Below, piece after piece: positions 2,779-18,334 of a stretch of DNA of 64,000 nt; the first letter of the stretch is position 1, and the number at the start of each line of letters is the position of its first letter. The translations under genes were made by a program, and so were the position numbers. Source of the stretch: Vreelandella titanicae BH1 (GTDB lineage Bacteria > Pseudomonadota > Gammaproteobacteria > Pseudomonadales > Halomonadaceae); the NCBI RefSeq assembly GCF_000336575.1, contig NZ_AOPO01000003.1, positions 248,001 to 312,000 of the forward strand, in the 5' to 3' direction. The notes under the pieces are model-generated. The model worked only from the letters and a program-made list of their open reading frames with translations, was not told where the DNA came from and did no database searches.

Positions 2779-3354
2779 AGCTTTTCTAAACTCTTCAAAA
2801 GAATCGAAGGTGGCAGCATCTGCGAAGACTATCGATTGTTACCAAGACCCTGCCTACTATTAATACTTCGCTGATCTCTATATGTGATTATCTCTGCTTA
2901 CCGAGACGGGCTATCAAAACTTTTCGCTGGGAATGAAAAAGTAAGCCATGGTTGTGCCCACAATGTGTCAAGAATTGGTTATTTTGTAGCAAGGTGCATC
3001 AAGATAGATAAAGCGCGATAAATGTTGCTGAAGCCACGCAGCTACTTATCCACCTCCACCGGAGGAGAGTTCTATTGCGAATGGTCGAGGCCAAACTCAA
3101 CGAATGCTAAGCAGTGGTTTCAGGCGAATGCTGATTGGCGATCGGGGGGGAGTTTTTGAAGCGGCACATTGAAAGAAAAGAGACTGTCTTTGACTTACCG
3201 AGTGAGTGTCTACCGGCTTGCGAGTGACACGGTGCTGTTACCTGTCTCTTCCCGCAAGTATATTCGAGGGGCTGCTTTTCTCAGATTCTACGGCCAAGTC
3301 GTTATTAATGATTAATTCGTCATTTGATATTCAGCACAGCAATTAAGAAGTGGA
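2779..3354 (-). other. 576-bp gap with no recognisable gene
   Basis: No reading frame with a family signature is seen on either strand. The stretch is AT-rich compared with its neighbours. It contains a small hairpin-like CCTCC-acc-GGAGG near 3050-3066 with no T-run. It may hold the promoter of the methyltransferase gene at its left end, but I cannot place a convincing -35/-10 pair. Confidence 0.4.
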
Positions 3355-3735
3355 TTAGGCCAACAAAAATATAACTAAAAGAGTCCCTACGCCTGCCACT
3401 CCTATTGTATTGGTGAAATCTAGTATCTCATCCTCAATATCACTCAGTAGCCAAGCTGTAGTGCTTTTTGATTTTACTTTGGAAAAGATTAAGGCTGTAG
3501 TGCTAGCTTCAACGCTAAAGACGGCAATGACGCTTTCAATTGATCCTGCATTAAGAAGCATCATGGGTAAAGCTAAAAAAGCAGTTAAAGTTATTGTAAT
3601 ACGTAAAGCAAAGCACTGTGAATGGCTTAATGTTCCAGGGGATTCCGGGAACCAAGCATTTGAGAATGACGTTTTCTCTTCCATGCATAGCGTTACAAGA
3701 AAACACTTGGATAGTGAAAATATAGATATAACCAT
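3355..3735 (-). CDS. Hypothetical small membrane protein
   Basis: I do not recognise this 126-residue protein. It has two to three hydrophobic stretches: a segment around ITITLTAFLALPMMLLNAG, one around SVIAVFSVEASTTALIF, and a C-terminal IGVAGVGTLLVIFLLA. The ATG at 3735 is chosen because AGGTG sits seven bases upstream; a longer frame up to 3891 would run into the hydrolase gene. Base composition is clearly lower in GC than the flanking genes, which suggests foreign origin or relaxed selection. An overlapping plus-strand frame exists but its C-terminus is the antisense of the hydrolase. That it is a real gene is uncertain. Confidence 0.4.
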   Translation of the reverse strand: MVISIFSLSKCFLVTLCMEEKTSFSNAWFPESPGTLSHSQCFALRITITLTAFLALPMMLLNAGSIESVIAVFSVEASTTALIFSKVKSKSTTAWLLSDIEDEILDFTNTIGVAGVGTLLVIFLLA

Positions 3736-3791
3736 CTTATTGCACCTATTCTCCATGAGTCCCGAAAAGCTCAGTCGGGGAGGGACGTCGA

Positions 3792-4943
3792 TTAGTCTCC
3801 TGTTACCTCGCGAATACCATCGAGGAGGTCGTAAAAATAGGGATTCCAGGTCAGGCGAGCGTGGTATTTTTCCGCGTCGCTCTGTCCCCATGCGCCGAAC
3901 CAGAGGGCGTTGGTGTCATCGGGTGGCGCGAGACCGTCCTGGCCGTTTTCCAGCATAAGATAGCTACCCGCTTGGCCGTAATAAGTATTCTCGGGCGCAA
4001 ACAGCACATTCATGTGGGAGAAGGTGCTAATGCGCTGATCGGGTAGGTGACTGATAAAAGCGGTGACGCGGGAATCGTCAAGGTGTTGTGGTGGATCGCC
4101 GTACCAGATGAAGCGCGATTGTTGGTTGGGAAAGCGGTTTTGAAAGGCAATGAGCGTCGCGTTGGGGTCAAGGACACTATCATGTTGACTCATCGTCATC
4201 AGGACAGGTTTATTAAAGTGTGAGGTTTTGAGATTTTTTTGCACGGTACTGACCGAGTGATAATAGAGCGAGGCCCCTCGCGCAGGAAATGATTGGTAAG
4301 TGACGATATTGTCTTCATCATCGATATCGAGCCAGTCCCATAAATAGGAAATGGTCGGGGCGAGAAATAGATAGTGGGTATCGGGGTAAAATCCAGGAGA
4401 AAACAGCAGCAGGCCATCGACATTGTCGTCTGTGAACGCATGAGAGGTGACTAGATTACCTCCGGTTGAGAAACCGCCAAGCCAAAGTTCATCGACCTCG
4501 GCTGCAAGCAGTTTGGCGTGATGGGCAATGATGTTTTCCCAATCATCATTATCAGGCAGTATCAGATCGGCTGGACGTGTACCGTGGCCGGGCAGGAGGA
4601 TGGAGCGAACCAGCCAGCCGTCATTCGCCATAGCGTTGGCGATATCGATGAAATACCACGGGCTTGTGCCCAGTCCATGCACTAACAGGATACCGCGTTT
4701 TGCCGGTTTATCAGGGCGGATTTCAAACGGCGTATTGAGCTCTATTTCAAGGTCGCGGTTCTCACTGATGAAAGCGCGATTATCAGCAATCCATGCACGT
4801 GTTTCGCGCACATATTGATCGAAACTCTCCTGATCATAGCGAGGCAGGTTTTCTGAGGGTTGAAAACCCGGCGAATCCGGTGGCACGGCGCAGGAAGCCA
4901 GCAAGAAAAGTGTGAAAAGTAGAACGTTCAGGCGGCTAATCAT
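3792..4943 (-). CDS. Alpha/beta-hydrolase lipoprotein
   Basis: Predicted envelope-anchored serine hydrolase of 383 residues. The start carries a lipoprotein signal with lipobox LASC. Then come the oxyanion-loop sequence LLVHGLGTSPW, the nucleophile elbow GGFSTGGN, and a late acidic residue in MSQHDSVLDP followed by a His in PPQHLDDS, giving a Ser-Asp-His triad. The fold resembles carboxylesterases and lysophospholipases. No operon partner is visible: the next gene on the same strand starts 57 bp further and looks unrelated. Substrate is unknown. A weak CCCGA/TCGGG stem lies just past the stop without a T-run. Confidence 0.8.
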   Translation of the reverse strand: MISRLNVLLFTLFLLASCAVPPDSPGFQPSENLPRYDQESFDQYVRETRAWIADNRAFISENRDLEIELNTPFEIRPDKPAKRGILLVHGLGTSPWYFIDIANAMANDGWLVRSILLPGHGTRPADLILPDNDDWENIIAHHAKLLAAEVDELWLGGFSTGGNLVTSHAFTDDNVDGLLLFSPGFYPDTHYLFLAPTISYLWDWLDIDDEDNIVTYQSFPARGASLYYHSVSTVQKNLKTSHFNKPVLMTMSQHDSVLDPNATLIAFQNRFPNQQSRFIWYGDPPQHLDDSRVTAFISHLPDQRISTFSHMNVLFAPENTYYGQAGSYLMLENGQDGLAPPDDTNALWFGAWGQSDAEKYHARLTWNPYFYDLLDGIREVTGD

Positions 4944-5548: not shown

Positions 5549-6913
5549 CTAGGCTTCTTTGCGTAGCGTCATGATCAACCCGGGATGGGCGTTGTGAGCC
5601 GAAAGCACCCAGCCGTGTGCCATGGCGATTTCCTGGCAGATGGCCAGCCCCAAACCAGCACCATGGTCGCGTCGATGTGCACCTCGCCAGAAACGAGAGA
5701 ACAGCAGAGACAGCTGTTCAGGCTCGACGCCAGACCCTCGGTCACGCACGGTTATCGTATTGCTCTGGATTTCCATGCTGACGAGAGTCTGCGCGGGGGC
5801 ATGCTGGATGGCGTTCTCCAGCAAGTTCTTGAGCAGAGTGAAGCATGCCCCGTGATCAGCCTTCCATGTCACCCCTTGATCCGCGGCAAGCACCGTTAAA
5901 TGCACGTCGGCGGACTCCGCCATGCGTTGCAAGTAGATGGAAGCTTCGTGGGCGATGTCGTGCATTCGAACAACGCTAAACTGGTAGTTGTGCGCCTCGC
6001 TCGCTTCGGCCAGAAGTAGCAGTTGTTGCACCTGGCGGGTCATGTACTCGACATCGCTCAATAGCGCCTTGCGGTCATTTCGCCCTTCCTCGAGCAACTC
6101 AACCTGCCCGCGGATCAGCGCCAGGGGCGTTTTTAACTCGTGGGCCGCGTGGCCGAGAAACTCCTGCTGCAGGCGATAACCCCGCTCAAGGCGTTCCAGA
6201 GCGTGATTGAAGCTATGTACCAGCGGGGCAATTTCCACAGGCACGGCGTCCGTATCGAGACGGGCGTCTATAGAGCGCGGCGAGATAGCCGCCGCCGATT
6301 TGGAAACATCGCGCAGCGGCTTGAGGGTTAAGCGCAAGGTAATGTAGGCGCATAGACCGAAGGCAACGAACATGACAAAGCCAAACACCAGTACGCCCGC
6401 TGCCACCAGTGGAAAGGCGACGAGATAGAGGACATCAACGAATCTTGAACTGGCGACGAACTGCAGATACCACGTTCTTTCACCATGCTCAAAGGGCTCC
6501 GTGGCACCGTAGAAAGTTCTGTCGTCATACTCAAAGGAAAAGGTGCCCCGCGCCAAACGCAGAACCTCGCCGTCGGCTGGCCAGAAAGCTTCTCTGGCAC
6601 TCGAGGCCACCGCCACGTTCCCGGCATCATCCAGAATACGGTACGCCGTTTCGGGTTGTGGGCCTTCGTATAGCCAAGCGCGGTCGTCCATGCTGGCGTC
6701 GAAACCAACGGGCCGGCCACGGCTGTCGAACTCGACATTGTCCACCAGCCCATCGGCCGCGTCGGCCATATCCATACGAGGCAGTAGATCGCTCTGAAGC
6801 ACCACTGCTGCGGCAATTACCAGCAGTGTGATACTCAGCACCATACCTGCCAAATAGGCCAGCAGCACCTTCAGCCTCAGGCTATTGAGCGTCATCCGCT
6901 TGACGAAGCGCAT
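5549..6913 (-). CDS. Two-component sensor histidine kinase
   Basis: Inner-membrane sensor kinase of 454 residues. A first membrane helix is at about residues 14-38 and a second at about 161-190, enclosing a periplasmic sensor of about 120 residues. HAMP follows, then the dimerisation and phosphoacceptor box GHAAHELKTPLAL with His258, the N-box LLKNLLENAIQHA, and G-boxes DRGSGV and GAGLGLAI. The organisation resembles QseC/PmrB kinases. It overlaps the end of the response regulator gene by about 30 bp, so the two are coupled. It probably responds to a periplasmic stress and acts on the adjacent regulator; the signal is unknown. Confidence 0.92.
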   Translation of the reverse strand: MRFVKRMTLNSLRLKVLLAYLAGMVLSITLLVIAAAVVLQSDLLPRMDMADAADGLVDNVEFDSRGRPVGFDASMDDRAWLYEGPQPETAYRILDDAGNVAVASSAREAFWPADGEVLRLARGTFSFEYDDRTFYGATEPFEHGERTWYLQFVASSRFVDVLYLVAFPLVAAGVLVFGFVMFVAFGLCAYITLRLTLKPLRDVSKSAAAISPRSIDARLDTDAVPVEIAPLVHSFNHALERLERGYRLQQEFLGHAAHELKTPLALIRGQVELLEEGRNDRKALLSDVEYMTRQVQQLLLLAEASEAHNYQFSVVRMHDIAHEASIYLQRMAESADVHLTVLAADQGVTWKADHGACFTLLKNLLENAIQHAPAQTLVSMEIQSNTITVRDRGSGVEPEQLSLLFSRFWRGAHRRDHGAGLGLAICQEIAMAHGWVLSAHNAHPGLIMTLRKEA

Positions 6914-7568
6914 ATCCCATCCCTCTCACGTTGGCGATCCGCTGGCGCGAACCGATGGCAAGCAGCTTGCGGCGTAAACGGTGCAGGGCGACATCCAAGG
7001 CGTTCGGTGTCACCGCCTCGCTTAGCCCCCAGGCCGCTGCTTCCAGCGCGCTGCGGCGAACTACCTCATCGTGCTTATATAACAGCAACTGCATGATGTG
7101 CAGCTCCGCCGGGGCGAGGGTAATGCTCTTGTCGCCGCTAAACAGAACGCCGCTTTCCGTATGCAGCCTCAGGTCGCCGTGAATGGGGTCGATTGAATGG
7201 AATTCCGCAGGGCGGCGTAGCAAGGCACGGACACGTGCCACCATCTCATCCATGGCAAACGGCTTGGGGAGGTAGTCGTCGGCACCGGCTTCGAGGCCTT
7301 CTAGCCTGTCATGCAGCGCATCGCGAGCCGTTAACACCAGGCAGGGCACGCTAAGGCCCGCGTTGCGCAACTTCTTGAGCAATAGCAGCCCATCGCCATC
7401 CGGCAAGCCACGATCGAGTACCAGTGCCTGGTAGGGCATCTGCTGAACGGCAGCCCAAGCCGAATCGATGCGGTCGACCACATCAACGCCGATACCGGCG
7501 TCCACCAGCCCTTTGCACATCAAGTGGGCTAGCCGGTCATGATCCTCGATCAGTAGTATGCGGCTCAT
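6882..7568 (-). CDS. OmpR-family response regulator
   Basis: Transcription factor of 228 residues: a receiver domain with acidic pair Glu8-Asp9, phosphoacceptor Asp52 in VLDRGLPDGDG and the conserved Lys in YLPKPF, then a winged-helix DNA-binding domain (TLAPAELHIMQLLL to the C-terminal VRGMGYAL). Its ATG overlaps the mipA stop by one base and its end overlaps the kinase start, so mipA, regulator and kinase form one translationally coupled operon. OmpR-type regulators bind tandem or inverted half-sites; the repeat pair at 8457-8503 upstream of mipA is a candidate target and would also serve the divergent RND operon. Confidence 0.93.
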   Translation of the reverse strand: MSRILLIEDHDRLAHLMCKGLVDAGIGVDVVDRIDSAWAAVQQMPYQALVLDRGLPDGDGLLLLKKLRNAGLSVPCLVLTARDALHDRLEGLEAGADDYLPKPFAMDEMVARVRALLRRPAEFHSIDPIHGDLRLHTESGVLFSGDKSITLAPAELHIMQLLLYKHDEVVRRSALEAAAWGLSEAVTPNALDVALHRLRRKLLAIGSRQRIANVRGMGYALRQADDAQ

Positions 7569-8383
7569 CAGAATGTATAAAGATAGCCAACTAACACGGC
7601 GTTTTGGGTCGAACGATCCACCAGTGGGCTATCTTTGATTTCGTTCGCCAGGCTCGTGACCTCAACACCTAACAGCACAGAGTGATGCTGGTCAAACTGG
7701 TACACGCCGCGCACCCCCGCCTCGATATTGGTAGCCGACTCTCCCTTATAGGCGGGGCGATCGAAGCGAACCTCATTATCGCGAACGCCGAAGTAGTAAT
7801 CGACGTTCTTGTCGTCCTGCCAGGACGCCCCCACGTGTGGGGTTACCATTATATGTTCGCCGAATTCCCACGTTCTCTCCAGGCCAAGATCGAAGCGATG
7901 TCCGTCGCTGTTGCCGGAGACGTCGGTGAGCCATTCGGCACTAACATCAACGAAGTCGGTCTCCCATTCCATTTTGGCCCCCGCCCAAAATCCGCCCTTG
8001 CGCTCACGCATGCCGTTGAGAATCGGGGCATCGCCTGGCTCGTAGCCGCTCTCATCGTACTGGGCGACGATGCCGAAATTGAGCTGTTGTGAGTCGTTGA
8101 TGACAAGACTCGGCAGTTTAAATTCGATTTCCGGTCCGAAGACACTAATGTACCGGTTTTCGATCAGGAACAAGGGAAATGGGGTGTTTTCCCTGTCGAT
8201 ACCGGCATAGGGATCCTGTTCGCTTATTGCGCCTACGCCCAATCCCCAAGTGGTTTCGTCTGAGTCCTCTTCGTCGGCGAACGCCAACGGAGAGACAATA
8301 ACAAGACCACCGATACATGCGGCTGTCGCCAATCTTATAGTGATGAGGCGGCCGTTCAGTAATAGCGACTGATGATAACTCAT
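7568..8383 (-). CDS. MipA/OmpV family outer-membrane protein
   Basis: Outer-membrane beta-barrel of 271 residues with an N-terminal signal peptide (helix LATAACIGGLVIVSPLAFA, cleavage after AFA). The mature start WGLGVGAISEQDPYAGID, the motif ENRYISVFGPEIEFKLP and the final aromatic residue (LYTF) fit the MipA/OmpV family. Members act as scaffolds for peptidoglycan enzymes or as small porin-like barrels, and are often encoded with a PhoP- or QseB-like two-component system, as here. It is the first gene of the operon with the response regulator and kinase, and is probably one of their targets. Confidence 0.87.
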   Translation of the reverse strand: MSYHQSLLLNGRLITIRLATAACIGGLVIVSPLAFADEEDSDETTWGLGVGAISEQDPYAGIDRENTPFPLFLIENRYISVFGPEIEFKLPSLVINDSQQLNFGIVAQYDESGYEPGDAPILNGMRERKGGFWAGAKMEWETDFVDVSAEWLTDVSGNSDGHRFDLGLERTWEFGEHIMVTPHVGASWQDDKNVDYYFGVRDNEVRFDRPAYKGESATNIEAGVRGVYQFDQHHSVLLGVEVTSLANEIKDSPLVDRSTQNAVLVGYLYTF

Positions 8384-8456
8384 GGTGGCACTCCTAGCAT
8401 GGTTTGAAAGTGAGAGTGGTATGAAAGTGCCATCATCAGGAGCGCTATCTTACGCG

Positions 8457-8503
8457 TTTCTTACTGGTGCCGGATTTATTTAAAACGTGACGTCAGTAAG
8501 AAA
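8457..8503. promoter_or_regulatory. Inverted repeat in the mipA / RND divergent promoter region
   Basis: Two perfectly complementary 10-bp arms, TTTCTTACTG at 8457-8466 and CAGTAAGAAA at 8494-8503, lie 27 bp apart in the region between mipA and the RND adaptor. The AT-rich spacer includes TTTATTTAAAA, a possible -10 area. The spacing, close to 3.5 helical turns centre to centre, fits two regulator dimers better than one hairpin. The nearby OmpR-type regulator is the likeliest binder; that is inference. Confidence 0.5.
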
Positions 8504-8596
8504 TGAGAAAGGAAGGCAGGCCGATAGTGGTTCAACTGAAATTCTTGGATTTTCTTTTTCATCAATAAATTGAACCCTTTGAAGCAGGCCTGGATT

Positions 8597-9751
8597 ATGC
8601 CATTTCCAAAACGAAAAAGTTGTTTCGGCATTATGCTTGTCGTGATTGCTAGCGCTGCCGCGCTGGCATGTATGCAGGCGGTGTCGTCGGAAAGTGATGC
8701 CGTCGCCGAACCGACGGCGCAGCCCTCACTATCAGTCAACGTGACGACATTAGAACCTCAGACGCTTCCAACGACGATTGCGGCCAATGGTGATATTGCT
8801 GCGTGGCAGGAGATCATTATCGGTACCGAAATCGGTGGCCTGCGGCTGGTCGACGTCAAGGCAGACGTGGGTGATGAGGTCACGGAAGGGCAGGTGCTGG
8901 CCGTTTATAACGACACGACCGTGCGCGCGGAGCTGGCTAGAAGCCGCGCCGCCGTGGCGGAAGCCGAAGCAACGCTTGCGGAGGCAACGGCTAACGCCCA
9001 ACGTGCCCGGGGTTTGAAAACCACCGGGTCGCTTTCAGAACAGCAGATTCAGCAATACGAAACCGCCGAGCTCACCGCCAGGGCGAGGCTCAACGTTGCG
9101 CAGGCGCAACAAGACGCCCAAGCATTACGCTTGGATCAGACGCAGGTTGTCGCCCCGGACGACGGTTTGATTACCTCGCGCACGGCCACGCTTGGCGCCG
9201 TTACCAGTGCCGATCAGGAGCTGTTCCGATTGACGCGCCACGGTCGGCTGGAGTGGCGGGCCGAGGTCGCCGCGTCCGATCTGAATAAGCTGCGACCCGG
9301 CCAGACTGCCAGGATAAGCCTGCCTGGCGGCTACGACCTCGAAGGGCGCTTGCGCACCATCGCGCCGCTAGTGGACACCGCTACACGCAATGGTCTGGTT
9401 TATGTCGACCTACCGTTAAGCGACGTTGCCCGGGCGGGAATGTTTGCACGGGGTGAATTTGAACTGGGCAGCCGCCAAGTGATGACGCTTCCCCGTGCCG
9501 CGGTGCAACTACGCGACGGCTTTGGCTATGTACATCGCGTCAGCGGTGAAGGCCAGATAACGGAGCAGAAAGTTGCCTTGGGCCAGCACACGGAGGATCG
9601 AATCGAAATTCGCGCCGGGCTTGAACCCGATGCCCGAGTGGTCGCCTCGGGCGGTGCTTTTCTTGGCAACGGTGACCAGGTGCGGGTGATTGAGGGAGAG
9701 CCAGTTCATTCACCCCAAGCGAACGATACCGACGCCGAGGAGGGGGTATGA
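8597..9751 (+). CDS. RND efflux periplasmic adaptor
   Basis: Membrane fusion protein of about 384 residues. The N-terminus has a basic stretch, a hydrophobic helix and ALAC, a plausible lipobox. Lipoyl halves are seen around GLRLVDVKADVGDEVTEGQ and VVAPDDGLITSRTATLGAV, with a coiled-coil hairpin (Ala/Glu/Gln-rich) between them. The frame could start at a TTG at 8570, but the ATG at 8597 leaves a standard signal. Its stop overlaps the start of the permease gene (ATGA), so adaptor and permease are coupled. No outer-membrane channel follows. It is divergent from the mipA two-component operon. Confidence 0.9.
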   Translation: MPFPKRKSCFGIMLVVIASAAALACMQAVSSESDAVAEPTAQPSLSVNVTTLEPQTLPTTIAANGDIAAWQEIIIGTEIGGLRLVDVKADVGDEVTEGQVLAVYNDTTVRAELARSRAAVAEAEATLAEATANAQRARGLKTTGSLSEQQIQQYETAELTARARLNVAQAQQDAQALRLDQTQVVAPDDGLITSRTATLGAVTSADQELFRLTRHGRLEWRAEVAASDLNKLRPGQTARISLPGGYDLEGRLRTIAPLVDTATRNGLVYVDLPLSDVARAGMFARGEFELGSRQVMTLPRAAVQLRDGFGYVHRVSGEGQITEQKVALGQHTEDRIEIRAGLEPDARVVASGGAFLGNGDQVRVIEGEPVHSPQANDTDAEEGV

Positions 9752-12700
9752 CGCTCAATACCTCATCCTGGGCGATTCGCAATCCTATTCCGGTTGTTCT
9801 GCTCTTCATCCTATTGACCTTCTGGGGGCTCATCTCCTTCCGAGGCTTGTTTATTCAGGACTTGCCGGATGTGCAGCTGCCCCTCGTGGAGGTCTCCGCC
9901 TCGTTGCCGGGGGCGGCCCCCGCCTTAATGGAGAACGAGGTTGCCCGCAAGATCGAGGACTCCATCGCTACCGTCTCCGGCGTCAAAAACATCAATACAA
10001 CGCTGACGGATGGCAATGCCGACATTGCTATCGAATTCAGGCTGGAAAAGTCCTTGCAAGAGGCTCTTGAGGATGTGCGCGACGCTGTTGCTCGCATCCG
10101 CTCGGATCTACCCGCCGACCTGCGTGATCCAGTGATTCGCAAGGGTGAGTTTTTCAGTGAGCCGATTGTACGCTACGCGGTGACCTCCTCTGATCTAGAC
10201 GATGAGGCACTCTCCTGGTTTGTCGATGACAAAATGACCAAGGCCGTCTTGTCGGTGCCAGGCGTTGGTTCGGTTCGGCGTATCGGCGGGGTCGATCGCG
10301 AAGTCCGCGTAGCATTGGATGCGGATCGTCTGCTGGCGATGAACACGACAGCGCTGGATATATCACGCCAGCTGCGTCAGGCGCAGTTGGAGGCGCCCGG
10401 CGGCCGTGTGGATGTCGGCGGGGCCGAACAGGCAGTGCGCATCATCGCCAACGCTGAATCCGCAGCCGAGCTGGCGAAGATGGAGCTGGCACTCAGCGAT
10501 GGCCGCCGTATTCGCCTTGATGAGGTGGCGACGGTTACCGATACCGTGGCCGAGCGGCGCTCGATGGCATTGCTTGATGGCGCGCCCGTCGTCGGCGTCG
10601 AGATGACCCGTGCCGAGGGGTACGGCGAGGTGGATGTGGCCGAGGGCGTGCAGTCTGCACTCGCTGAGTTGCAGGCGCAATATCCTCATATAGAGGTCGA
10701 AGAAGCCTTTAATTTCGTCGGGCCGGTGCTGGAGAACTACCAGGGCTCCATGCACATGTTATTCGAGGGCATGGCGCTGGCGGTGCTGGTGGTATTCTGC
10801 TTCCTGCGCAATTGGCGGGCCACACTGATTGCGGCGGTTACGCTTCCGCTGTCGATCATCCCCACCTTCGCTTTCATGCACCTGATGGGCTTCTCGCTCA
10901 ATGTGGTGACGTTGCTGGCGCTCTCGCTGGTGATCGGGGTGTTGGTGGACGATGCCATTGTCGAGATTGAGAATATCGAACGGCATCTGCTAATGGGCAA
11001 GCCCCCGCGCCAGGCCGCCATGGATGCGGCGGCAGAAATCGGCTTGGCTGTGGTCGCCACCACCTTTACGTTGATTGCCGTTTTTCTGCCCACAGCATTT
11101 ATGAGCGGCACCGTCGGGAAATTCTTCGTTCAGTTCGGTTGGACGGCCTCTGTGGCAGTACTGTTCTCGCTGTTGGTGGCGCGCCTTCTCACGCCCATGC
11201 TGGCTGCGTATCTGTTGCGCAAACCCCATCTGCATCATCGCGACCCAGCGTGGATTAGCTACTATCTGGTTGTCGCCCGTTGGTGCCTGCGCCACCGCAA
11301 GACAACCCTCCTCGCGGCGGCGGCCTGCTTTGCAGGCGGTATCTGGCTGGCTTCGACCCTGCCGGGTACCTTCATACCCCCCGATGATGGTTCCCAGACG
11401 CAGGCGACGCTCACCTTGCCGCCCGGTAGCACCTTTTCTGAAGCGGAGGCGCTTGCCGAGCAGGCACGCTCACGACTGGAGACGCAACAGCATGTAGTCA
11501 GCGTCTTCGCGGCCGTCGGTGAGGACTCCGGCAGCAGTGACTCTGATGTGATCTCGGTGGAACTGACCGTTGGTTTGGCGGATCGCGCAACCCGCGCGGG
11601 CGTTACGCAGCAAGACATAGAGCAGCAGTTACGCGTTGCACTCGCCACACTTCCCGGCGTGCGAACTCGCGTAGGCGACGAGGGGGATGGCTATGAGTTG
11701 GTGCTCGCCGGTGAGGATAGCCGGGTGCTTGAACTGCATGCCCGCCAAGTCGAGCGGGAGATGCGCGCCATTCCCGGCATCGGTGCGGTGAGTTCGACGG
11801 CCAGCCTGGTCAGGCCTGAACTCATTGTACGCCCTGATTTTGCCCGCGCCGCCGACCTTGGGGTCTCGGCTCAGGCCATCGCCGATACGCTGCGCATCGC
11901 GACAGTGGGCGATAACGCCGAGGACCTTCCTAAGTTGAACTTCAGCTCGCGTCAGGTGCCGGTGATGGTTCGACTGGCGGATGCCGCTCGGGAGGATATG
12001 GCGACCCTTAAACGGCTACCAGTGCCTGGTGTGAACGGACCAGTGCCGATGGAAAGCGTGGCTAACTTTGAGTGGAGCAGCGGTCCTTCGGAAATCACCC
12101 GGCATGATCGTCTGCGCAACGTCAATTTCGAGGTGAGCCTACAAGGGCAGCCTTTGGGAGAAATCGAACAGGCCGTGCAGGCACTGCCCAGTTTACGTCA
12201 GTTGCCACGCGGCGTGTTTCAGACACCAGAAGGCGATGCAGAGGAAATGGCGGAGCTTGCCGCAAGCTTCGGGATTGCCATGCTGACCGGCGTGCTGTGT
12301 ATCTATATGTTGCTGGTGCTGCTGCTCAAGGATTTCATGCAGCCGGTCACTATTCTGGTGGCGCTGGTGCTCTCCGTACCTGGGGCTTTCCTGGCGCTGT
12401 TCCTCACGCAGACGCCCGTGTCGCTGCCCGCCATGATCGGATTGATCATGCTGATGGGCATCGCCACCAAGAACTCAATCCTGTTGGTGGACTACATCAT
12501 CATCGCCCGTCGGGTGCATGGGTTGGAACGTGTGGACGCCATTGTTGATGCCTGCAAAAAACGTGTCCGGCCCATCGTGATGACCACCATTGCCATGGGG
12601 GCGGGCATGATGCCGATCGCCCTAGGATGGGCTGGCGATCCCAGCTTCCGGGCCCCCATGGCCTTCGTGGTCATTGGCGGACTGCTCACTTCAACGCTTC

Positions 12701-12807
12701 TGAGCTTGCTGGTTATCCCGGTGGTGTACAGCTACGTGGATGACATCGGCAATATCCTGGGGCGGTTCAAGCTGCCCCCAAACCACGCAACGCAAACATC
12801 GGAGTAG
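9748..12807 (+). CDS. RND efflux permease
   Basis: Complete proton-driven RND permease of 1019 residues in the inner membrane. The first helix is followed by a porter domain with the HAE1-type sequence LPDVQLPLVEVSASLPGAAP. The central membrane block holds the proton-relay motif around GVLVDDAIVEIENIERHL (two adjacent Asp), and the second half has MGIATKNSILLVDY and ACKKRVRPIVMTTIAMGAGM. Length and order are normal for the family. It lies between its adaptor (4-bp overlap) and the amidohydrolase 8 bp downstream, so the three are one operon. Substrate unknown; the downstream enzyme suggests an aromatic acid or similar organic compound. Confidence 0.94.
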   Translation: MTLNTSSWAIRNPIPVVLLFILLTFWGLISFRGLFIQDLPDVQLPLVEVSASLPGAAPALMENEVARKIEDSIATVSGVKNINTTLTDGNADIAIEFRLEKSLQEALEDVRDAVARIRSDLPADLRDPVIRKGEFFSEPIVRYAVTSSDLDDEALSWFVDDKMTKAVLSVPGVGSVRRIGGVDREVRVALDADRLLAMNTTALDISRQLRQAQLEAPGGRVDVGGAEQAVRIIANAESAAELAKMELALSDGRRIRLDEVATVTDTVAERRSMALLDGAPVVGVEMTRAEGYGEVDVAEGVQSALAELQAQYPHIEVEEAFNFVGPVLENYQGSMHMLFEGMALAVLVVFCFLRNWRATLIAAVTLPLSIIPTFAFMHLMGFSLNVVTLLALSLVIGVLVDDAIVEIENIERHLLMGKPPRQAAMDAAAEIGLAVVATTFTLIAVFLPTAFMSGTVGKFFVQFGWTASVAVLFSLLVARLLTPMLAAYLLRKPHLHHRDPAWISYYLVVARWCLRHRKTTLLAAAACFAGGIWLASTLPGTFIPPDDGSQTQATLTLPPGSTFSEAEALAEQARSRLETQQHVVSVFAAVGEDSGSSDSDVISVELTVGLADRATRAGVTQQDIEQQLRVALATLPGVRTRVGDEGDGYELVLAGEDSRVLELHARQVEREMRAIPGIGAVSSTASLVRPELIVRPDFARAADLGVSAQAIADTLRIATVGDNAEDLPKLNFSSRQVPVMVRLADAAREDMATLKRLPVPGVNGPVPMESVANFEWSSGPSEITRHDRLRNVNFEVSLQGQPLGEIEQAVQALPSLRQLPRGVFQTPEGDAEEMAELAASFGIAMLTGVLCIYMLLVLLLKDFMQPVTILVALVLSVPGAFLALFLTQTPVSLPAMIGLIMLMGIATKNSILLVDYIIIARRVHGLERVDAIVDACKKRVRPIVMTTIAMGAGMMPIALGWAGDPSFRAPMAFVVIGGLLTSTLLSLLVIPVVYSYVDDIGNILGRFKLPPNHATQTSE

Positions 12808-12815
12808 AAATTGTC

Positions 12816-13958
12816 ATGAAACAGATCGAAAAAACCCTAGAGAGCCTGACAATGGGACGCCGTAGTTTTCTAACTGGCGCGGCTGCACTTGGTGTTGGTG
12901 CCGGGTTGTCCGCGCCTGCCATTATCTCCAGTGCTGTCGCGACAGAGAAATCGGTCATCGCGTTGCGAGACCAGGATCTGCCCTTTATCGCCACGGAAGA
13001 GACCTATACCACCGAGGAACTGATCGCGCTGAACGCGATTAACGATCAACACGTAGAGTACCTCAGGGAAACAGGTCTTGCCGAACTCGGCCCTGGCCGC
13101 ATCGGCGCAATGGATAAGGCGGGGATCAATGTTCAAATCCTCTCCGCACATACGCCGGGCGTGCAGAATGTCCCCGGTCAGGAAGGCATCGATTTTGCCT
13201 ATCGTCTCAACAAGATGATTGCCGATGGCCCGATGGCCACCCATCCGGGGCGGTACCAGGCCTATGCAACCTTGCCTCTGCAGAACCCGGAAGCATCAGC
13301 GGACGAACTGGAACGCGCCGTTCGGGAAGATGGCTTTCTGGGGGCCATGACCAATGGATTCATTGGCAACAAATTCCTCGACCACCCGGATTTCGAGCCC
13401 ATTCTGGCGCGCGCCGAGGCACTTGATGTGCCGATATACCTGCATCCAGGCTTCCCCCCGGAAGACGTGTTCAATATTTATTACAACACCATGCGGCCAG
13501 GGTATGACCAATTGTTCCAGAACTACATTTTCAGCGGTTCAGGATATGGATGGCACCAGGAGGTGCTGACTCAATGTCTTCGACTGATCATCACTGGGGT
13601 GTTCGATAAATTTCCTAAACTGCAGATGATTATCGGCCATATGGGAGAGGGCCTTCCGTTCTACTACGAGCGTATCGTGGGAGATATGAGCGAGTCGACC
13701 GAAGACTCGCTGAACAAGCCTATCGGGCAATACTTCAGTGACAATTTCTGGTACACAACCAGCGCATTCTTCCAGGACGAATTGCTTCATCTTTTGCTGA
13801 GGTACATCAGTGTGGATCGAGTGATGTTTGGAACGGATTACCCGTTTGCAGACATGAAGCAAGGAACCGACTGGTTTCGGGCGGTGGATCTGCCCCGTGA
13901 AGCCAAGGAAAAAATTGCGTTCCGAAATGCAGAAAAGCTGTTCGGAATAAAGGTCTGA
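12816..13958 (+). CDS. Exported amidohydrolase/decarboxylase-like TIM-barrel protein
   Basis: Protein of 380 residues with a Tat-type signal (MGRRSFLTGAAALGVG) and an amidohydrolase_2 fold. Metal-site candidates are His in IYLHPGFPP, His in IIGHMGEGLPF and Asp in MFGTDYPF, the pattern of gamma-resorcylate and 2,3-dihydroxybenzoate decarboxylases. The usual N-terminal EExH is here EETY, so the first histidine is absent, as in the EEA variants of that group. Placement behind an RND pump and export to the periplasm are unusual, since relatives are mostly cytosolic. A role in changing an aromatic compound in the periplasm before efflux is inference. The Shine-Dalgarno is weak, so coupling to the permease is likely. 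Confidence 0.8.
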   Translation: MKQIEKTLESLTMGRRSFLTGAAALGVGAGLSAPAIISSAVATEKSVIALRDQDLPFIATEETYTTEELIALNAINDQHVEYLRETGLAELGPGRIGAMDKAGINVQILSAHTPGVQNVPGQEGIDFAYRLNKMIADGPMATHPGRYQAYATLPLQNPEASADELERAVREDGFLGAMTNGFIGNKFLDHPDFEPILARAEALDVPIYLHPGFPPEDVFNIYYNTMRPGYDQLFQNYIFSGSGYGWHQEVLTQCLRLIITGVFDKFPKLQMIIGHMGEGLPFYYERIVGDMSESTEDSLNKPIGQYFSDNFWYTTSAFFQDELLHLLLRYISVDRVMFGTDYPFADMKQGTDWFRAVDLPREAKEKIAFRNAEKLFGIKV

Positions 13959-14024
13959 CGCATCCGCCCGGGATCGAATGATGCCGATTGGTTTTGGTGT
14001 CAGCGGGGCCATAACCGGAGATCA

Positions 14025-14055
14025 CTTTGGCTGTATCTCAAGGGTACAGCCAAAG
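14025..14055. terminator. Perfect 11-bp hairpin downstream of the amidohydrolase gene
   Basis: Arms CTTTGGCTGTA (14025-14035) and TACAGCCAAAG (14045-14055) are perfectly complementary around a 9-base loop, 66 bp after the amidohydrolase stop. There is no T-run, so it would be a factor-dependent terminator, an mRNA-stabilising hairpin or an operator. The chimeric pseudogene begins just beyond it. Confidence 0.45.
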
Positions 14056-14113
14056 GATGCCAAGCGAGGCCCCTTGCCTCCCTCATCGTGGCCAACCACT
14101 CATCGGAGGTCTC

Positions 14114-14390
14114 ATGTCCCCCCAATCCAGATTCCACGGTCGTCAATCGGCGATCCAGGAGGGCGCTGCCATCCAACGCTGATGACGCAACGGCCATGCT
14201 CGTCGGCGTAGTCAAGCGATACGGCTCTGGCGAGTCCGCCATCGTCGCGCTCGACGACGTCACCATCGCGTTCCCGGTAAGCGGCGTTGGCGAACCGGGC
14301 ATTTCCCCGCTCGCGCCTGAGCTGGCCAACGCGCTGTTCGCCTCCACACAGCAGAGGATCCGTAGTCTGCCGTTCTCCGATCATGTCTAG
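14114..14390 (+). pseudogene. Chimeric remnant: ABC-ATPase start joined to molybdenum-oxidase end
   Basis: Two unrelated gene ends are joined. The left part has GGAGG at 14105-14109 and ATG at 14114. After a shift of frame it encodes [18 protein letters not shown], the opening strand of MacB/LolD-type ABC transporter ATPases, and it stops before any Walker A motif. From about 14277 it encodes [18 protein letters not shown] and continues to SDHV and a TAG at 14388. This matches the C-terminus of the molybdopterin oxidase at 26598-28766 (GGVGEPGIPPLAPALANA ... SDHV), including the GEPG glutamate of the active site. The identity is not high enough for a recent copy. No function is expected. Confidence 0.6.
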
Positions 14391-14656
14391 GCCAATACAG
14401 ACCTGTCGAGGCCCATCATTGAGCAGCGGCGGCGAGGCATAAAGGCATCAGGAATGACATCGGTGGATGGAAGCATGTGGTGTCCTCGTCGCATAGGACG
14501 AGACTGCCCGGTAATGCGTCTTTCAGAAGCCTTAGCGGAGGATCGGAACGATCGAGAAGTATTGCGTAAGTTTTCAGTAAGCCAGCGGCAGCGACAGTCA
14601 ACACTCTTTCCACTCAACGTCGACTGAATGGCCTCTGGTCTTTCGAGGATTCGTGC
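14391..14656. other. 266-bp spacer before the yejM-like gene
   Basis: No gene recognised. It contains a short CTCGTC/GACGAG stem near 14488-14505 and, at its right end, GAGG eight bases before the ATG at 14657. A minus-strand frame here (14416-14613) has no family signature. Confidence 0.35.
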
Positions 14657-16505
14657 ATGATCTATCGACTCCTGTACCGGTGGCGCTGGCTTGGCGCCTG
14701 GACCCTGGCCAACCTGCTGCTTGCCTGGGTGATCTCGCTGCGCTATGTCGGCTATATTCAGCCCGAAGGGGCCGAGCAGTGGAGCTACCTGCTGATGGTT
14801 TTCCTCGGCCATCTCTCGCTGCTGGTATGGCTGGGAGCTTTGCCGATGTTCCTGCTGGCCACGCTTTTACGCGGCACCGGGCTATGGCTGATAACCACCC
14901 TGTGGGCGAGTGGCCTGCAGCTGCTACTGCTGCTTGATACCTTCGTCTACGCTCAGTATCGCTTTCACCTGAGCGGCTTTATTCTCGACCTGCTGCTCAA
15001 CGCCGGGGGCGACGTGTTCAGCTTCTCATGGGTCGCCTGGGCACTGGCCGTCGGTGGCGTGCTGGGTATGTTGGCGGTGCAAGGTGGCCTCGGGCTGCTA
15101 TTCAAGCGACGTCAACCTTCACGGCCTGTGGGCGCAATGCTGGTAGTGAGCTTGTTGGCTCTGCTGGGGGTGCACGGTTGGCATGCCTGGGCGGATGCCC
15201 ACTACGACCGCGACATCACCAGCATGACGCGTCATGTGCCGGTCTTCTATCCGGCCACTGCCAAGCGCTTCTTCGTCGAAAAGGGGTGGGTCGACCCCCA
15301 GGCGGTGCGCGATCGGGTGGATCTCGAGGCGACGAAGGGCGGGGCGCAGGGCGCAGGGCCTGATCTACCCTTCCGCGCCGCTGAGCTGCTCGCCGTCGGT
15401 GTCTCCCGACAACCTGCTGCTGGTGCTGGTGGATACCCTGCGCCACGACGTGCTCACTCCTGAAGTGATGCCGAATCTTTACCGGTACGCCAATCAACCC
15501 GGTTGGTTCAGGGCGCGTGAGCATATCAGCGGTGGCAACTCCACCAAGGCCGGCGTCTTCAGCCTCTTCTATGGCCTGCCAGTCACCTACTGGGATGCAT
15601 TTACTGCCAGCCAGACGCCCCCGGTACTGATGGAGCGATTAGAGGCTGCCGATTACCGATTTCAGGTTCTCTCTTCGGCAACGCTGGTGAGCCCTGCCTT
15701 TGACCGTAACGTTTTTGCCGGCCTCAAGGATATCTCGCTGGAGCCAGCACAGGGCGAGCCCTGGGAGCGCGACCAGCAGATCACCGATGACTGGCTAGCC
15801 TGGATGGACAAAGAAGAGGCAAGGTCAGATGAGCGGCCGTTCTTTGGTTTCCTGTTCTATGACGCCGTGCACGGCTACAGCCATCCGCCAGACTTCCCGC
15901 GGTTCATGCCCTATTGGGAGCATATCAACCACATGAGCTTGGGGCCTGACTTCGATCCCGAACCTTACTGGAACCGCTATCGTACGGCAGCGCGCTATGT
16001 GGACCAGCAATTGGGACGTGTACTCGATGACCTGGAGCGCCGTGGGCGGCTTGAGGATACTGCGATAGTGATTACTGCCGACCACGGTGAGTCCTTCAAC
16101 GAACATGGCAAGAACTACTGGGGACATGGCAGCAACTACACGCCGGAGCAGATCCAGGTTCCGCTGGTGATGCATTTGCCGGGGCGATCCGGTGGTGCGC
16201 TGGAGCGGCGAACGCACCACGCCGATATCGCACCGACCCTGCTCGAGGAACTGCTCGATTGTGAATCAGCTCCTCAACATTACACCCTGGGGCAAAGCCT
16301 GTTGGACGTCGCCCCCCATCGCGACTGGATGCTTTCAGGCAGCTACATGGGTTATGGCATCCTGATGCCCGACTATCAGGTGGCGGTGCACCCCACGCGG
16401 GCCTTCGAAGTCTATGACTACCGCATGAACGAACTCGACGATATCAAGCTCGAGTCCCAGGTGTCGAACGAGGTACTTAGGGCGCTGTCGAAATTCTATC
16501 GCTAA
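14657..16505 (+). pseudogene. YejM/PbgA-like DUF3413-sulfatase membrane protein, frameshifted
   Basis: Encodes an inner-membrane protein of the YejM/PbgA type, known in enterobacteria to sense lipopolysaccharide and control LpxC turnover. The first frame (14657 to about 15350) gives a DUF3413 domain with five hydrophobic segments (MIYRLLYRWRWLG to the RFFVEKGWVDPQ linker). The second frame (to 16505) gives the sulfatase-like periplasmic domain with NLLLVLVDTLRHDVL, GGNSTKAGVFSLFYGLP and VITADHGESFNEHG. A duplicated 7-mer at 15343-15356 causes the shift; with one copy the frames join as GGAQGLIYP and yield about 613 residues, close to the usual length. As written the gene is broken; slippage-based reversion or sequence error is possible. 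Confidence 0.8.
15343..15356 (+). repeat. 7-bp tandem duplication causing the yejM frameshift
   Basis: GGCGCAG occurs twice in direct succession (15343-15349, 15350-15356). Seven bases shift the frame by one, exactly the offset between the two halves of the gene. Deleting either copy restores one open frame. Confidence 0.85.
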
Positions 16506-16829
16506 GACACCAAGGATGGTGCATTGCCGGCTTTAGCGTACGGAGTGAATCGGCCATGGCCTCAATGCCTATAACCATCTGTTGAGCAGGCCAATGGGTA
16601 GCCCGACAAGGTGCAGGTCTTCGACCCCGAACCCCGGTGTGGCGTTGAAGGCTTGGCGGTTTCAATGGCCAGGAACAACAAGTGTAGTGGCATAGTGAAT
16701 TGGCTGCGCCGTTGTGTGAAGCGAGGCACATACACAATTGGCACCTAATTTTGCCCAGGATTTGACCTTGACTTCAGCTCTATCGTTGCTCGCTACACAA
16801 CGATAGAGCTGCATGAGCTAAAGCCCGTT
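16506..16829. other. 324-bp gap between convergent genes
   Basis: No gene recognised on either strand. The only structure seen is the long hairpin at 16776-16810 near its right end. Confidence 0.4.
16776..16810. terminator. 13-bp perfect hairpin between convergent genes
   Basis: AGCTCTATCGTTG (16776-16788) and CAACGATAGAGCT (16798-16810) pair perfectly around a 9-base loop. It lies between the ends of the yejM-like gene and the DUF1857 gene, so a bidirectional terminator is the simplest reading. There is no T-run on either side. Confidence 0.5.
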
Positions 16830-17303
16830 TCAGAGCTTGCCGTCGGCAATCAATTCCCGGGTGCGTCTGAGCGTGGACAGCAAGGCGGCCTTGTAGCCGT
16901 TGTCGCTGTCGAACTGGATTTGTTCGGCTTGTTCCTCAGGGCCGCCCGGTGCTTTGTCGCGCAGGCCAAGATAGCAGTAGAAGCGAAGCTGGAGCGCTCC
17001 GGCCTCATCCTCAAAGAGTTCGTTGACGATGGCGCCCTCACGGGGACCTGTGGCCTGGAAGAAGGTGACCTTGCTTTCTGGCTCCAGGGTGATGATCTCG
17101 CGCAGATCGGTGCCGGCGATGGTGGCTTCGCGCACGAAGTGCGTTGTGCTTTCCTCCATGACGTCGCAGCGGGTGCACAGGCCTTTGGGTAGGAACAGGC
17201 GGGCGTCGCGGGCCTTGAGCACCAGGCCCTGCCAGGCCTGTGCTCGGGTCAGAGTGGTTTCCCCTGCCGGATTCACCGGGACAGTAGCGGTCGAGTAGAT
17301 CAT
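16830..17303 (-). CDS. DUF1857 (AtaL-like) SRPBCC-fold protein
   Basis: Cytosolic protein of 157 residues with the DUF1857 pattern: N-terminal YSTATVPVNPAGETTLTRAQAWQGL, then FLPKGLCTRCDVMEES and a final NGYKAALLSTLRRTRELIADGKL helix. The family has the START/Bet v1 (SRPBCC) fold with a ligand cavity and no assigned reaction; fungal AtaL-like relatives accompany secondary-metabolite genes. The start at 17303 is the first methionine. It lies 37 bp after the NmrA-like gene on the same strand and probably shares its promoter, under the divergent LysR gene. Confidence 0.75.
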   Translation of the reverse strand: MIYSTATVPVNPAGETTLTRAQAWQGLVLKARDARLFLPKGLCTRCDVMEESTTHFVREATIAGTDLREIITLEPESKVTFFQATGPREGAIVNELFEDEAGALQLRFYCYLGLRDKAPGGPEEQAEQIQFDSDNGYKAALLSTLRRTRELIADGKL

Positions 17304-17340
17304 GGTGAGTTTCCTTATGTTGATTGGGAGTGCGCTGCCG

Positions 17341-18210
17341 TCAGACTGAGGCCGCGACCTGGGTGGCGAATTCGCGATAAGAATGAAGGGGGCGACCCAG
17401 AAGGGCAGTCAGCCGGTCAACGTCACCGGTACCGGGGAGCATCCCCTCGGTGATGAAACGCTCGCTCATCAGGCGCATGTCGTAAGCCATCCAACTCGGC
17501 ATGTGCTGCAATAGGTTCTGCTCGAACGCGACGGTATCCTCACCCGGGTAGGCGATGGGGCGACCAAGTACATCGGTCCAAATAGCGGCAATGTCCTGGC
17601 CGGTTAGCGTGTTGGGGCCAACGAGATTGATACGCTCGATCGGTAGCGGTACGACTGACTGCTCGCGGCGCAGGAGCTCGAGGGCGGCGACTTCTCCGAT
17701 GTCGCGCGTGTCGACCATCGCCAGGCCCTTGCTGCCGATCGGCATTGGGTAGATGCCGTATCCGGTGACTACCTCCTTGATGGTCAGGTCGTTCTCGATG
17801 AAGTAAGCGGGCCGCAGGATGGTGGCGTTAAAGCCCATCTGCTTGATCATGCGCTCCACTCCATACTTGCCGGCAAAGTGCGGCACATTGACGTACAGGT
17901 CGCTGTGGATTACCGAGAGGTAGACAATTCGCTCGATGCCGGCCTCACGGGCGAGGTTAAGCGCGAGCAGGGCCTGGGTGTACTCGTCGGCTACCACGGC
18001 GTTGAGCAGAAAGAGCGTCGAAACGCCATGGTAGGCGTTGCGCAACGAGTCGACGTCGAGCAGGCCGCCCTGGATGACACTGACGCTGGCCGGAAAGTCT
18101 GACTTCGAAGGATCGCGGACGAGCACGCGGACATCGGCATCGCGCTTGACGAGTTGTTCGACAACGTGGCGGCCGACAGTGCCGGTTGCGCCGGTAACGA
18201 GAATGGTCAT
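17341..18210 (-). CDS. NmrA-like NAD(P)-binding oxidoreductase/regulator
   Basis: Atypical SDR of 289 residues in the NmrA/YtfG group. The dinucleotide motif VTGATGTVGRHVVEQL is at the very N-terminus, followed by VRVLVRDPSK, which suggests NADP preference. No catalytic YxxxK is obvious at the usual place, so it may be a redox sensor or a quinone reductase. The start at 18210 follows AGGAAA by five bases; longer frames to 18345 lack a ribosome site. It is divergent from a LysR gene 124 bp away, which probably controls it, and is followed by the DUF1857 gene. Confidence 0.85.
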   Translation of the reverse strand: MTILVTGATGTVGRHVVEQLVKRDADVRVLVRDPSKSDFPASVSVIQGGLLDVDSLRNAYHGVSTLFLLNAVVADEYTQALLALNLAREAGIERIVYLSVIHSDLYVNVPHFAGKYGVERMIKQMGFNATILRPAYFIENDLTIKEVVTGYGIYPMPIGSKGLAMVDTRDIGEVAALELLRREQSVVPLPIERINLVGPNTLTGQDIAAIWTDVLGRPIAYPGEDTVAFEQNLLQHMPSWMAYDMRLMSERFITEGMLPGTGDVDRLTALLGRPLHSYREFATQVAASV

Positions 18211-18334
18211 GGTAATTTCCTGGGTTGGGGGTATTTGTTGCAACCAGAGTTGCGTACGGATTGAACAATAGGTCGTTTCATTATCAAAACAAAGAGCATA
18301 AAATACAGACACTATGTTCCGTATATGAGACACA

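Follow-up and report, generated by a model that had tools for sequence, protein, structure and literature searches.

Most probably, a recent slippage duplication has cut a dispensable YejM-like gene down to its membrane domain, a reading to which a probability of about 0.72 is given. The window (i.e. the whole 64,000-nucleotide stretch of DNA analysed here) reads GGCGCAGGGCGCAG at 15343-15356, so that the heptamer GGCGCAG stands in two tandem copies, enclosed in an 18-base tract of period 7 that amounts to 2.57 copies (table 1), and the frame that follows, open to 16505, is +1 relative to the upstream frame, ORF1. The first-pass annotation had pointed to an exact 7-bp tandem duplication at this place, had regarded the two frames as parts of a single gene set +1 apart, and had estimated a product of about 613 residues once the extra copy is removed. 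The duplication is confirmed both in the sequence and in the alignment; 18 of the 23 named homologous loci are a single open frame across both domains, the others showing frame-breaking indels (three loci) or being cut at contig ends (two loci), and the intact homologues are 613 residues long from the matching start, or 625 in three loci.

Table 1. Features of the gene and its surroundings (positions in the window).
Feature	Position	Strand	Remarks
Neighbouring genes for a membrane-fusion protein and an RND efflux pump, both intact	8570..12807	+	context only
Upstream similarity stretch moving with the gene	14483..14656	+	kept in several relatives that diverge farther out
ORF1, DUF3413 membrane domain	14657-15463	+	268 aa; PF11893, 5e-40
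Period-7 tract with 7-bp tandem duplication	15342..15359	.	linker between membrane and catalytic domains; doubled state in 0 of 23 named loci
Rest of the gene, out of frame, with the periplasmic sulfatase-fold domain (alkaline-phosphatase superfamily)	15351..16505	+	zero internal stops
First downstream-frame ATG past the ORF1 stop, four bases on	15468..15470	+	candidate restart only

A bare repeat of seven bases is not more than chance would give and proves nothing alone, two perfect 7-bp tandem pairs being observed in the window against 3.6 expected (the mean of a first-order Markov model, with a range of 1-9 across 50 simulations). The heptamer repeat is meaningful because it is private to this genome and lies inside a frame that homology shows to be otherwise conserved. 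Indeed, when the window was aligned at the DNA level with 21 of the 23 named loci, its sole indel inside the gene with respect to the reference locus, L035, was one 7-base insertion in the linker, the length of which is identical in 18 of 18 intact loci; the doubled heptamer was also absent from nine loci retrieved by genome search, a set that seems to overlap with the named loci in several genomes. The GCGCAGGGCCTG context, with two GGC seven bases apart, is common to four loci (L035, L036, L052 and L056), and the duplication would have arisen in the linker most simply by replication slippage at such short GGC repeats. The gene shows the hallmark of a pseudogene, a frame-disrupting change private to one lineage with intact homologues, and ORF1 may still keep a function; a private repeat inside a conserved frame should be a real lesion or else an error in the consensus sequence.

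The YejM/PbgA-like architecture proposed at the outset is borne out by a DUF3413 domain followed by a sulfatase-fold domain, which form one chain in the intact relatives and are spread over two frames in the window. ORF1 is made up of 232 native residues (codons 14657-15352) and 36 out-of-frame residues ending at the TGA at 15461-15463. YejM structures are its best matches (7.6e-17, residues 11-221), and E. coli LapC is 28% identical to the membrane part (1e-20). The pair D94/H104 conforms to the D-X9-H pair that PMC7018646, in the portion available, gives as a feature of DUF3413, and K203-R204 is kept and aligns with E. coli R215-R216, which passages of PMC6921655 describe as a lipid-binding pair and passages of PMC12444477 as LPS-binding arginines. 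The predicted outcome of the break is a 268-residue membrane protein, provided with DUF3413, D94/H104 and K203-R204, that would be made without the periplasmic catalytic domain.

The half that has gone out of frame is equally recognizable, with a match to the Sulfatase family PF00884 at 15366-16502 (1.3e-32), the YejM periplasmic-domain structure as best structural match (8e-35) and 27% identity with E. coli LapC (3e-40). The metal/active-site residues of YejM are listed in PMC7576196, within the part seen, as D268, T302, R451 and H468; in the downstream piece D23 aligns with D268 and T60 with T302, both present in the sequence and out of frame, H240 aligns with R451, and H254 aligns with H466, two residues off H468. 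With D23, T60, D239, H240 and H254, the lost part would carry a fuller metal-site set than the E. coli protein. The enzyme status of YejM is itself disputed, the relevant sections of PMC7576196 speaking for it and those of PMC7773988 reporting against. A structure prediction for the intact L035 protein from an 18-row alignment (mean pLDDT 54.2, pTM 0.51) was too poor to use.

Compared with LapC/YejM/PbgA of E. coli and Salmonella, the gene in the window has the same order of DUF3413 and sulfatase fold, and it keeps D94/H104 and the basic pair K203-R204. The proteins of the genus differ in having D-H (D239-H240 of the downstream piece) where E. coli has G450-R451, and in scoring 260-261 bits against the NCBIfam model NF038282 (LapC/YejM/PbgA), the cut-off of which is 825 bits: the intact L035 and L043 reach 259.7 and 261.0, respectively, the two pieces of the window 61.7 and 173.8, and E. 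coli 1038.7. A further difference is that the gene is accessory in the genus rather than core, as LapC/YejM/PbgA should be, since DUF3413 turned up in 12 of the genus's 82 genomes (10 of the 73 good ones). LapB, instead, was found in 79 of the 82 (E 1e-50), and the genome of the window encodes homologues of both LapB (33%) and LpxC (57%), two members of the route by which LapC/YejM/PbgA, through LapB/FtsH, adjusts the amount of LpxC. In the wider family sample, 82 of 250 genomes have DUF3413, 80 of them above cut-off.

Sequence comparison indicates that the YejM-like gene is accessory in the genus and that it has probably been passed between species, because its presence is patchy, its identities are discordant with those of LapB and its flanks differ. 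The identities to the YejM-like gene and to LapB are 94 and 71% in G036, 93 and 71% in G079, and 78 and 95% in G003, and G027, with a LapB at 98%, has no YejM-like gene at all. The flanking DNA varies among carriers, upstream similarity beginning at 14483-14522 in at least seven loci. On the side, a genome that appears to be Halomonas campaniensis SK03 (G062, L036) has an intact YejM-like gene and gave no match to LapB at E 0.001, which could be due to an assembly gap.

A broken yejM had first been seen as a puzzle, YejM being held essential or near-essential in enterobacteria, and a copy elsewhere, a non-essential role, reversible slippage or a read error had been put forward to account for it. 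The second of these suggestions is supported by the 70 of 82 genus genomes that show no DUF3413 gene. The appeal to essentiality is weakened, in that the intact proteins of the genus reach 260 of the 825 bits and the lost half is reported to be dispensable in Enterobacteria: passages of PMC6921655 and PMC7773988 describe the periplasmic half as dispensable for viability. For vc2041 of V. cholerae, the accessible part of PMC4222735 reports that in vitro only the DUF3413 part is required, the need for the sulfatase part being confined to the animal, and a review, in the section seen, describes FtsH control of LpxC as largely restricted to Enterobacteriaceae (PMC12444477). The essentiality puzzle thus dissolves, and the break looks like ordinary loss, not like a crippled essential gene, because most close relatives do without the gene. 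On this reading, the truncation has hit a YejM/PbgA-like gene of the inner membrane with two domains, an accessory gene that seems to be shared horizontally within the genus, and the cell would tolerate the loss because the gene is dispensable there.

As to age, the codon changes found only in the window are, in the downstream piece, 11 synonymous and one non-synonymous, with zero stops, and eight close relatives together have 84 synonymous and 26 non-synonymous singletons, a contrast that is not significant (Fisher p 0.30). Since the downstream codons are 11:1 synonymous and free of any stop, the break is, by this measure, recent or not real, and the codon data do not separate the two. A hint of a somewhat older loss may be seen in the mean pairwise dN/dS of the window's downstream piece, 0.151, the highest of nine (the others range over 0.109-0.139), and in three residues of its own at sites that do not vary among 15 others (0-5 in the eight relatives).

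That the break is not real, the true genome having one heptamer and an intact gene, is unlikely, although an error of assembly or consensus would find some room in a draft of 48 contigs, would also leave the downstream frame without decay, and has parallels in other assemblies, from which three loci (L051, L052 and L056) carry frame-breaking indels of the error type. An exact 7-base duplication is, however, not typical of short-read error. The genome G100 is collinear with the window at 94% over 5555-18232, and among the 16 ORFs fully aligned with it (17,512 bases; the other 34 of 50 hand-listed ORFs are uncovered) the net indel length fails to be a multiple of three in only two: the YejM-like gene, and ORF 3355-3891 on the minus strand, where the indel is near the start, in the overlap with a neighbour. 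The collinear genes of 11353-18232 are free of scattered single-base indels, and the remaining differences from G100 are in-frame, mutually cancelling, non-coding (as at 13988-14005), in the doubtful ORF 14088-14390, or at 18220-18221, a single indel inside an ORF as listed and ahead of its likely internal start. This pattern of indels speaks for a real lesion but is no proof of one.

If the lesion is real, it might still be reversible, slippage between one and two heptamers switching the catalytic domain on and off; such phase variation is quite improbable. The tandem tract and its 2.57 copies, the unbroken constraint on the downstream frame and a separate tandem repeat of 11 bases that L052 has in this linker, with 12 bases inserted in all, are in its favour, against which stand a copy number of only two, the restriction of doubling to the window genome among the loci compared, the equal linker length of the intact loci, further single-base indels within the gene in the L052 assembly, and a narrow literature search that gave no paper. 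Repeat number does not vary as in phase-variable genes, a single state being found in 23 of 23 named loci, which are from other species. Very improbable is a rescue in translation, by which the catalytic domain would be obtained through +1 slippage at CCC-T or a restart at ATG 15468. A CCC-T, which may be slip-prone, does occur in the ORF1 frame just past the tract (15368-15371), and the restart codon is present; intact relatives, however, need no such device, and a product from the restart would lack D23 (the counterpart of E. coli D268 in the alignment) as well as an export signal. A membrane/hydrophobic or export segment was sought in the downstream piece and none was found, so that the restart product would be expected to stay cytoplasmic. 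Scarcely credible, finally, is that an essential yejM has been broken and a second copy has taken over. Two copies do exist in a relative, Halomonas sp. SpR1 (G091), but the proposed copy elsewhere did not materialize in the window genome: no second DUF3413 place was found in its draft of 5.34 Mb and 48 contigs (completeness listed as 100), the C-terminal piece has one full match in the assembly, and most genus genomes live without the gene. The C-terminal piece also has weak similarity, 34-35% over about 100 residues, to two other frames of 563-564 aa, which were not counted as further copies of yejM.

The preferred reading, loss of the catalytic half from a dispensable gene, recalls the laboratory truncations of E. 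coli (LH530/yejM569) and Salmonella (pbgA delta191-586), which likewise keep the membrane domain and lose the globular domain, and with which, according to the excerpts of PMC7157816, PMC6921655 and PMC7773988 seen, cells are viable. Those alleles are products of the laboratory and stop at about residue 189-190, whereas the truncation in the window is natural, affects an accessory homologue, would leave a product that is native to residue 232 (about 233-244 in E. coli) and, unlike them, would add a foreign tail of 36 residues. If the membrane half works, the effect would be like that of the viable E. coli and Salmonella truncations and unlike that of a null.

Taken alone, what the window shows is just another accessory gene with a private frameshift. 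The case would mean more if the break were a natural separation-of-function allele, i.e. a working membrane-only protein, with the five-helix domain and the basic interfacial stretch, that has shed its catalytic domain and converges on the stand-alone DUF3413 proteins of a sister genus (g36). This is a tentative proposal, with the odds rather against it; if true, DUF3413 would be an independent module of LPS control and the sulfatase-fold part an optional add-on. The gene of the sister genus is the best reason to think that a membrane-only form can be useful, by an analogy that does not imply usefulness of the window's product. Like the latter, it has DUF3413 without the sulfatase domain and keeps the D-X9-H pair (D99/H109). 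It differs in being conserved in a fixed operon rather than a broken long form, and in being diverged and without the YPxTA(K/R)RF stretch.

This DUF3413-only gene of 244-274 aa was observed in eight genomes of g36 (L082-L089; about 2980-3720 of the locus on the match strand), eight out of ten for which the listing of g36 gives any DUF3413 match, unmatched genomes of g36 not all being listed. In all eight the end of the upstream frame lies three bases ahead of it, and the frame that follows overlaps its stop by four bases. By Pfam, the upstream neighbour is a Kdo/WaaP kinase in three of three loci tested and the downstream one a family-2 glycosyltransferase in two of two; a heptosyltransferase is on the opposite strand (three of three). 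In the three genomes examined in this way the gene is thus surrounded by LPS-core genes. In a sample of 390 genomes of the order, whole-length matches to the gene came from three g36 genomes only. Beside a Kdo kinase and a glycosyltransferase, it offers a natural setting in which to ask whether LPS synthesis is controlled by the membrane domain alone. The case of the window shows, furthermore, that outside the enterobacteria YejM-like genes can have a patchy distribution, with apparent transfer and loss, so that the label 'essential' should not be transferred along with the name. In one g36 genome (G149:C26:1003502-1004154), a long DUF3413 gene also looks broken into separate short frames, its stand-alone gene being intact.

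The closest named homologues carry the genus labels Halomonas, Billgrantia, Vreelandella and Onishia. The two YejM-like genes of SpR1 (L035 and L046) are 95 and 77% identical, respectively, to the window's downstream piece. Recurrent natural breakage was considered for L051 (four single-base insertions), L056 (six single-base indels) and L052 (three single-base indels and a 12-base insertion), and was set aside as assembly noise on account of error-type indels; the sources are a MAG and two genomes, apparently G098 and G073, with a listed completeness of 74 and 86% and a contamination of 6%. The tandem repeat of L052 (Halomonas sulfidaeris), GAGGCGACGGA twice in the linker near 3940-4000 of the locus, may be genuine. 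The pieces from Vreelandella andesensis (L055, L057, L026 and L068) were rejected as lesions, since they stop at an N scaffold gap or at contig ends. Scans for promoters and terminators found none upstream of the gene on its own strand. A 95%-identical stretch of the neighbouring pump is present in L035 and L056 on the other side of the gene and inverted, so that the neighbourhood has been rearranged.
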